Below, piece after piece: positions 5,078 to 64,000 of a DNA stretch of 64,000 bases. Where the stretch lies: the NCBI GenBank assembly GCA_031271685.1, contig JAISVH010000117.1, positions 29,236 to 93,235 of the forward strand, read 5' to 3'. The stretch's first letter is position 1. Each line of letters starts with the position of its first letter. The notes beneath the pieces were generated by a model. The model did not search any database. It was given only the letters and a program-made list of their open reading frames with translations, and was not told the origin of the DNA. This DNA comes from Eubacterium sp. GTDB lineage: Bacteria; Bacillota; Clostridia; Oscillospirales; Ruminococcaceae. Position numbers and translations under genes: made by a program.

Positions 5078-5114
5078 AGATTTTTTCCTTTACTAAATCA
5101 AAGTCTTCTCGACA

Positions 5115-60965: not shown

Positions 60966-61212
60966 TTCAAACATCTGCCGTGGGATTGAAAATCACACGC
61001 CGCTTACTATTAGTTAATTAACTAATAGTAAGCATGTATAGCCCAGCTTAAAAAACTAAATATTTTTTAAGCTAAAGGGATTCCACGAAGTGCGCGTTGC
61101 GGGCACTGTTTACAAACAGCGCAATCCTCGTTTAACTTTAAAGTTAGAAAATTTAAAGTTAAACGATTATAAACCGACGCCTAAGAGGCGGGAGACATGA
61201 ACGCGGTTATAA
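60966..61212 (+). repeat. Family A repeat whose ends flank about 150 bp of nested palindromes
   Basis: Starts ttcaaacatctgccgtgggattgaaaatcacacgccg; ends cgacgcctaagaggcgggagacatgaacgcggttata; interior contains gcttactattagttaattaactaatagtaagc. Confidence 0.65.
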
Positions 61213-61332
61213 TACTAAATTATTTTAACATTTTTTTCTTATAAAGTCAATAAAATAAATTTTAAATTATAATTTATAAAACTATTGACAAAGATTTAAT
61301 AAAATGTTATAATGATTTAGCGTTTTAATCAT

Positions 61333-61600: not shown

Positions 61601-61678
61601 GGTGGGTATAGCGTAGTTGGTTAACGCGTCAGTTTGTGGCACTGAAGACCATGGGTTCGAATCCCATTACCCACCCCA
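61601..61678 (+). tRNA. tRNA-His (GTG)
   Basis: G-GTGGGTATAGCGTAGTTGGTTAACGCGTCAGTTTGTGGCACTGA...GGTTCGAATCCCATTACCCACCCCA. Confidence 0.94.
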
Positions 61679-61716: not shown

Positions 61717-61745
61717 AAACCCCTTAAATCAAGGGGTTTTATGTT
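61717..61745 (+). terminator. Terminator after the tRNA-His cluster
   Basis: aaaccccttaaatcaaggggttttatgtt. Confidence 0.65.
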
Positions 61746-61960
61746 GTTTTCGGACAAAAACCTGCTCACGCATGGGTCTTCTGAGCCGACAATCGGAAAT
61801 GAAAAACATGAGCAAAAATACACGATGCACCAGTTTAAGCACATTTGCACCAACAACCATCCCACGGAGCCTCACCTGCTTTAGGTAATTTATTTGTACG
61901 GACTTGCTCTCATAATCGTGTAATTTTGCACCATCTGGCGTCTCATTGCACCAACCCATG

Positions 61961-61990
61961 AAAAAAAGCCCGCGGATCACTCCGCAGGCT
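61961..61990 (-). terminator. Minus-strand terminator downstream of the decayed recombinase-like tail
   Basis: agcccgcggatcactccgcaggct with T-run on the minus strand. Confidence 0.55.
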
Positions 61991-62019
61991 CACATTAATG
62001 TGCTCGCGTCTCACCCGCG

Positions 62020-62115
62020 CTAATCTAGTTCGGGCGGCACCGGTATTTCCGTGCCGTACAGAAACGTAAACGTCAGCCCCTTATCCGAGTGTACCGTAAG
62101 CGATTCCCCACCGTC
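62020..62115 (-). pseudogene. C-terminal remnant of an ORF (possible site-specific recombinase tail)
   Basis: Minus strand reads ESLTVHSDKGLTFTFLYGTEIPVPPELD*, fused to the intron remnant without an intact upstream gene. Confidence 0.35.
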
Positions 62116-62831
62116 ATGTTGCCGGGTTTTGCGTAGATACGCTGATATGCAAGCGAGTAGAACTCCGGGTTGTACAGATTGCGGTACAGTCTTTTGAACT
62201 GATAATCCGCTTTATCCGCACATTTCGTTAAATTTCCCAATACATTTTCGGGATTTCTCATAGTGCCTCACGCACCTTTCCTAAATCTGTATGAACAGTA
62301 TGCTGTCCACCTTCGCCATGAGGACGGCTTTCCCGCCCTCGGACTACTATGGGGACTCCGTTGCCTTATCAGATTTTCAATGTCAACACATATAGCCGTT
62401 TCCGGCGCTCTGACTTAGGCAATCAACGTTTATAACATAAGAAGTAAAAGCGTTTCAGGTTGTCGGATCTGCCTTTCATCCTTTACCGCGTATTGCGGTC
62501 GGGTGACAGCGGATATTCATAAATCCGTAATGTGCAAACGGATTTAACGCTATCAGGCGACGTTTGTAACAGCTTTCCGTCGCCGGCCAGCAGTAGCTCC
62601 CCTCAGATTAGCATTTAAACAGTTTAGCTTTTATCCTCATACCTGAACTTCATCTCGCCATTCAGTCGCGGTATAGCTGTTTACCGACTTATGGCTTTAC
62701 CGGCGTGCTATTGTCCCTCTTTGGTTTCCGCTAAGGTTAACCGGTCAATGACAGGGTGAGCTTTCGCCTGTAATATCTTGACCCTGCTGACTTGCAATCG
62801 TCAGTTCTCTTATGCAACTTTACGGTCGCAC
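62115..62831 (-). mobile_element. 3'-truncated group II intron (ribozyme 5' domains plus N-terminus of the intron-encoded RT/maturase)
   Basis: Minus strand starts GTGCGACCGTAAAGTTGC at 62831; ...GGGCGGGAAAGCCGTCCTCATGGCGAAGGTGG... then MRNPENVLGNLTKCADKADYQFKRLYRNLYNPEFYSLAYQRIYAKPGNMT (IEP start at 62261), then broken. Confidence 0.75.
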
Positions 62832-63073
62832 CACATTTCCGCGACAAACCAGTATACATTGGTGAGGTTTTGGTATTCGGGCCGCTTTTTATTGTCGCAG
62901 ACCACGCAGAGGATAGCCGCCGCAATGACCGACATTTCGCCGTTCGTCCATATCTTCTCGCCCTGCGCCTTGCCGACAAGGGTATTTGTCATGCCGAGAA
63001 CTACATAGGCCTTACACCCCACGGAACTTCGTTCCGCGGGGACCTCGTAGGCCAAGTTTTCAATAAAAATCAC
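62832..63073 (-). pseudogene. VirD4/TraG-type conjugative coupling protein fragment interrupted by the group II intron
   Basis: Minus frame reads VVLGMTNTLVGKAQGEKIWTNGEMSVIAAAILCVVCDNKKRPEYQNLTNVYWFVAEM, coupling-protein-like, no intact gene. Confidence 0.65.
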
Positions 63074-63164
63074 GCACCAATCTGTTGGATTCTGCTTGTA
63101 TTTCGCTTTCAGTTATGTTATAATGTTTCTGTAAATCCACAAAACTAAAAAGAGGTGTCGGATT

Positions 63165-63577
63165 ATGCCAAAGTCTGTTTTCAATGACTTTATGACCCAA
63201 AATCCAAACCGCAAAAAGTTCGCGGACAGGATATGATTTACACTTTCAATATTCTCTCGCAAGACATTTTCCTCGTTCAACTGCTCGAATCAAGCGATTT
63301 TGGGAAACCGGCGATTTCTCCGATTGTCACTAACATAGAACACGTTTTTTCTGATCCCGGCAAACCCCACGCCAATACGCTTGACGACAACTTCACCAAG
63401 TAGGCGGTGGGGTTGATGGTTAATACTATTCTTGAACCGTTCGGCTACAGCGTTTGAAAACAGAAAGACTTACCCAAGAGCGCGAGGGCCGAGAAGTTCC
63501 AATTCGCTTCGGTTTACCGCCGCGACATAAGCAAAACGGCGACCATGCGGGTCGCCAAGCGTATCGAAGAAGTATAG
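63165..63577 (+). pseudogene. Decayed small ORF with frameshift and in-frame stops
   Basis: MPKSVFNDFMTQNPNRKKFADRI* then YTFNILSQDIFLVQLLESSDFGKPAISPIVTNIEHVFSDPGKPHANTLDDNFTK*AVGLMVNTILEPFGYSV*KQKDLPKSARAEKFQFASVYRRDISKTATMRVAKRIEEV*. Confidence 0.6.
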
Positions 63578-63590
63578 GGGAAACTTTGCT

Positions 63591-64000
63591 ATGTTAGAAG
63601 AACTGGATACTCTCTACGGCAGGCTGCAAAGTATCAGGCCGTTATCCCCGGAAAGCGTCCGTCGCTTGTCCGAGGACTTTATGATCGACTACACCTACAA
63701 CTCCAACGCGATTGAGGGCAGCACCCTTACCCTTGAGGAAACCGCGCTTGTGCTGAAGGAGGGCATCACGGCCGACGGCAAGCCGCTGAAACACCATCTT
63801 GAAGCCATCGGCCACAGGGACGCTTACTATTACGTCGAGGATTTAGTTAAGAACAAAGCTCCCGTTTCCGAACGAGCCATAAAGGATATTCACTCCCTTG
63901 TCCTGATGGACAGGCAGATGGACAAGGGTGTGTACCGGAGCGTTCCCGTCCGCGTCGGGGCGTTTCATCCCTGTCAGCCGTTTGAAGTGCCGGTGCAGAT
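63591..64000 (+). CDS. Fic family protein, N-terminal part (truncated by window end)
   Basis: ATG 63591: MLEELDTLYGRLQSIRPLSPESVRRLSEDFMIDYTYNSNAIEGSTLTLEETALVLKEGITADGKPLKHHLEAIGHRDAYYYV; SNAIEGS inhibitory-helix-like motif. Not in the supplied ORF track. Confidence 0.85.
   Translation, partial: MLEELDTLYGRLQSIRPLSPESVRRLSEDFMIDYTYNSNAIEGSTLTLEETALVLKEGITADGKPLKHHLEAIGHRDAYYYVEDLVKNKAPVSERAIKDIHSLVLMDRQMDKGVYRSVPVRVGAFHPCQPFEVPVQ

Follow-up and report, generated by a model that had tools for sequence, protein, structure and literature searches.

Near one end of the analyzed window, a 64,000-nucleotide stretch of a contig from Eubacterium sp., lies a truncated group II intron inside the remnant of a VirD4/TraG-type coupling-protein gene, itself part of what is best supported as a decayed integrative element. 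The intron and its host gene had been proposed by an earlier note made from the letters of the sequence alone, and are confirmed here by the homology of the exon, the position of the exon-intron boundary, and the alignment of the ribozyme. The element is supported by the C-terminal tail of a recombinase, fused to the intron where the element meets the chromosome next to a tRNA gene. The features of the locus, by position in the window, are as follows.

62832-62992, minus strand: fragment of a VirD4/TraG-type coupling-protein gene, the 5' exon of the intron (161 nt; its last bases are the TG of a split Cys codon)
62839-62845, minus strand: IBS2, GTCGCGG (exon bases -14 to -8), with a 7-bp perfect complement in the intron
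62832-62837, minus strand: IBS1, AATGTG (final six exon bases), with a 6-bp perfect complement in the intron
62262-62831, minus strand: 5' half of the group II intron, comprising the GTGCGACC start, domains I-III, and the beginning of domain IV (from alignment with nine related introns)
62665-62671, minus strand: EBS2, CCGCGAC, the sole 7-bp complement of the exon end
62529-62534, minus strand: EBS1, CACATT, in a hairpin loop, the sole complement of the final six exon bases
62103-62261, minus strand: intron maturase/reverse transcriptase, N-terminal 50-53 codons, cut before the RT domain (from amino acid identity to relatives)
62020-62106, minus strand: large serine recombinase, last 28 codons and stop, fused to the maturase (from the match to the C-terminus of a recombinase on contig C103 of the same genome)
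61961-61991, minus strand: terminator-like hairpin after the recombinase (from sequence; conserved after the C103 recombinase)
61845-61955, minus strand: region of GGTGCAA-type repeats (61845-61854, 61926-61935, and 61946-61955; from a repeat search, with like repeats in the same place at the C103 locus, L052)
61717-61737, minus strand: palindrome ACCCCTTGATTTAAGGGGTTT, common to both element ends
61602-61678, plus strand: tRNA-His(gtg) (ARAGORN)

The 5' exon is a fragment of a coupling-protein gene

The exon fragment encodes 53 residues that are 98% identical to an intact 635-aa protein from a Gracilibacteraceae MAG (L104; 88% identity in DNA) and 94% identical, again over 53 residues, to the proteins of loci L105 and L106. 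An intact relative of the same family matches PF02534 and PF12696 in Pfam, and the exon is homologous to such T4SS-DNA_transf proteins; Pfam searches with the short fragments themselves gave nothing over the cut-off, and a PDB search with the exon returned no match. Whereas the coupling proteins of clostridial conjugative elements (Pfam T4SS-DNA_transf) are intact and uninterrupted, the present locus keeps about 54 codons. A complete ATPase domain is not found in the remaining 161 nt, and the part preceding AEM..DMTN, including the GATRSGKS motif present in intact relatives, is absent from the fragment. No second copy of the fragment was found in the rest of the genome (93% complete, 152 contigs).

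The minus-strand reading frame is open across 63073-62810, and the earlier note had taken coupling-protein sequence to begin at 63073 and run straight into the 5' signature of the intron. The run into the signature holds, at 62832/62831, but the extent does not: coupling-protein sequence is confined to 62992-62832, intact coupling-gene relatives match in DNA from about 62992 at the earliest and no further than 62832, and the frame upstream of 62993 is unrelated to the coupling protein. Immediately upstream of the fragment, at 63011-63065, is an imperfect palindrome, GGCCTACGAGGTCCCCGCGGAACGAAGTTCCGTGGGGTGTAAGGCC, which occurs once in the genome, as does the stretch that contains it (62993-63110).

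The exon-intron boundary is precise and pairs with intron sequences

The intron begins with GTGCGACC at 62831 on the minus strand, placing a GUGYG start at the exon junction. Relatives that share the Cys codon run on ATG TGC where the window reads ATG TG followed by GTGCGACC, and the intron therefore splits the codon as TG|C. In uninterrupted relatives that keep this codon the similarity ends exactly at 62832, between TG and C, and in relatives with another codon there (for example Desulfosporosinus and Paenibacillus) it stops one or two bases earlier. The EBS1/IBS1 (6 bp) and EBS2/IBS2 (7 bp) pairings with the flanking exon are both perfect; both matches occurred by chance in 16 of 2000 dinucleotide shuffles, in a test that accepted them anywhere, allowed three registers for the 7-mer, and made no demand on position. 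The presence of an EBS2 argues against class IIC. A GTGCG start at this site was seen in none of 37 named coupling-gene loci wherever the site was readable. Counts of uninterrupted genes include duplicates, as several further coupling-gene loci are from the same genomes as named ones. A genome-wide pattern search for the same exon-intron joint matched no other genome.

Domains I-III are conserved and domains V-VI are missing

The 570 nt from GTGCG to the ATG of the maturase, earlier described as about 570 nt of ribozyme-like sequence, align throughout with nine introns from related genomes. The secondary structure of domains I-III is conserved: RNAalifold predicted 101 pairs, and 59 show compensatory changes. 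The row of the window forms 89 of these pairs, against 91-101 in each of the nine relatives, a deficit consistent with decay. Folded alone, the 570-nt part did better than 100 shuffles (z = -3.2).

No Rfam group II model matched in the window, or in a search of the narrow region, as expected from the coverage of RF00029, which is domains V-VI, the part that the intron has lost. The Rfam search proposed with the earlier note was thus trivially negative, and the reverse transcriptase and VirD4 homologies proposed alongside it were both found. A sub-threshold snoRNA match in the narrow region was taken as chance. Among six relative loci, RF00029 matched L056 only (a longer stretch around L004; 57 bits); the shorter loci may not reach the 3' end of their introns. 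For domains V and VI, which serve catalysis and the branch point, no RF00029 match was present in the window or in the genome (93% complete), and the intron is therefore a fragment and not complete.

Over its start, MRNPENVLGNL...GNMT, the maturase shares 54-70% identity with those of ten related introns, in agreement with its earlier identification, and 40% with that of one more distant relative. Its first 50-53 codons are all that is left, with no RT domain among them. The genome (93% complete, 152 contigs) contains no RVT_1 match, and it contains no second copy of the intron. With neither RVT_1 nor a domain V match in the genome, the intron should be dead and the remnant inert.

The maturase is fused to the end of a serine recombinase beside tRNA-His

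The intron had also been described as cut and fused to an unrelated ORF tail. The cut and fusion stand, at about 62112-62103, where the recombinase codons are in a different frame from those of the maturase; the tail has an identity, being the C-terminus of a large serine recombinase. Together with the downstream terminator, it aligns with the C103 recombinase (L052, 2997-4322) at 74% DNA identity (E = 7e-18). That relative has all three serine recombinase domains (Resolvase, Recombinase, and zinc-ribbon), whereas the window has only the C-terminal 28 codons. Searched as a protein, the tail gave no plasmid or phage match.

The C103 element end resembles the one described here in its order of recombinase C-terminus, terminator, GGTGCAA repeats, palindrome, and adjoining tRNA, and differs in that its recombinase ORF stays open up to the contig edge (441 aa) and its tRNA is tRNA-Leu rather than tRNA-His. 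The conservation of the tRNA cluster across the genus ends at, or a few bases from, the 3' end of tRNA-His, the presumed neighbor of the integration target. By this shared order and the end of genus-wide conservation, the tail resembles one end of an integrated element and the fusion an internal deletion. The palindrome ACCCCTTGATTTAAGGGGTTT, 38 bp from tRNA-His, occurs only twice in the genome when up to two mismatches are allowed, each time between a recombinase end and a tRNA, and is a possible attachment-site core or tRNA terminator. At both element ends, the GGTGCAA-type repeats separate the recombinase gene from the tRNA (61845-61955 here; 2641-2758 in L052) and are possibly recombinase-related sites.

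Origin of the remnant

The explanation that we consider highly probable is an integrative conjugative element beside tRNA-His that carried an intron in its coupling gene and then suffered deletions or rearrangements. An element with a large serine recombinase would have sat next to tRNA-His, and a maturase-bearing group II intron of the EBS1/EBS2 type would have inserted precisely in its VirD4-like coupling gene, splitting the Cys codon. Two deletions or rearrangements would have come after this insertion: one would have joined maturase codon ~50 to the final 28 recombinase codons, with loss of the intron's 3' half, exon 2, and the intervening DNA, and the other would have removed the coupling gene upstream of 62993, leaving a remnant presumably unable to splice, retrohome, or transfer. 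We infer this order of events and the loss of function, as well as the former presence of coupling gene and recombinase in one element; the account as a whole is based on the identity of the exon, the exact 5' splice site, the covarying ribozyme half, the EBS/IBS fit, the maturase start, the recombinase tail with its matching downstream order on contig C103, the absence of RVT_1 and domain V matches from the genome, and the single copy of the intron and coupling fragment. An intact integrative conjugative element would comprise a relaxase, a T4SS, a coupling protein, an integrase, and two attachment sites; the locus comprises two gene fragments and one element end. The end of the window is the end of the contig, and the far side of the element lies outside the sequence of this 152-contig, 93% complete assembly.

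Two unrelated decayed elements could instead lie side by side, the coupling-gene and intron piece adjoining the end of a different element with a serine recombinase. No serine recombinase of this type occurs within up to 8 kb on each side of the 37 named coupling-gene loci, and no examined locus, and no intact element, pairs the two gene types. Relatives of the C103 recombinase in VirD4-bearing genomes are mostly on other contigs or distant. The two pieces nevertheless meet at a single junction with no third sequence between them and point in the same direction, and a simple deletion inside one element is the shorter story; we regard adjacent elements as unlikely. An assembly chimera, in which two metagenome contigs were wrongly joined at the junction, would accord with a fragmented assembly and with the short common stretch GAATCG found there, but the contig that contains the junction is 93 kb long, the exon boundary is about 900 nt away, no long repeat is present to provoke a misjoin, and the missing intron half is on no other contig, which makes such an error very improbable.

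Domains I-III are well preserved, and the break falls in domain IV, where split introns usually break; circularly permuted group II introns exist in bacteria (PMC8637638). We rejected a working split or permuted intron with its second half elsewhere as having next to no likelihood, as a domain V-VI match is absent from the genome (93% complete) and from the window stretch searched, the exon is joined directly to the GTGCG start, and the coupling gene lacks its start and 3' exon.

Relation to other introns in conjugation genes

The intron is comparable to other group II introns in conjugation genes, such as Ll.LtrB, which sits in a relaxase gene, ltrB, on plasmid pRS01 (PMC6003770). Both are maturase-bearing introns in a conjugation gene, with the exon recognized through EBS/IBS pairing; here the host gene encodes a coupling protein, and the intron is reduced to its 5' half. 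Related introns in genomes of the same family (L003-L007, L011-L013, and L017) show 66% mean column identity over domains I-III and the same maturase start, but they begin with GTGCGCCC or GTGCGTCC, occupy other sites, and have a longer maturase, with domain V kept in L056. By eye, their exons apparently derive from a coupling-protein gene in L011, from a gene resembling that of a T4SS membrane protein in L004-L006, and from relaxase-like genes in L007, L013, and L017. On a tentative reading of this distribution, possible though doubtful, these group II introns form a family in Clostridia that specializes in genes of conjugative elements; if true, the site described here would be new among the homing sites of that family, and introns would be evolving jointly with conjugative elements.

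Such element wreckage is common in bacteria, and the locus is one more fossil of a known process, in which conjugative elements carry group II introns and the two decay jointly. Its wider use is limited to the insertion site that it defines in VirD4-type coupling proteins, TG|C after ...WFVAEM. Truncation or inactivation is documented for most bacterial group II introns, which often lie amid mobile DNA (PMC4424553).

Other features of the window

On the plus strand, a decayed reading frame (63113-63590) precedes the start of a Fic-like protein (63591-63998; PF02661 under the cut-off), which is cut by the contig end. A dispersed repeat at 61036-61213 has at least seven further copies at 80-85% identity, on contigs C26, C147, C129, C95, C118, and C49 of this genome. 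Another dispersed repeat spans about 45-60 nt around TTCAAACATCTGCGGCGGAGCCGCTTCCAATGTTTTAACAAGCGT and has nine copies in the window, at 5110, 8559, 11189 (inverted), 15581, 18997, 24177, 38809, 46428, and 57895.
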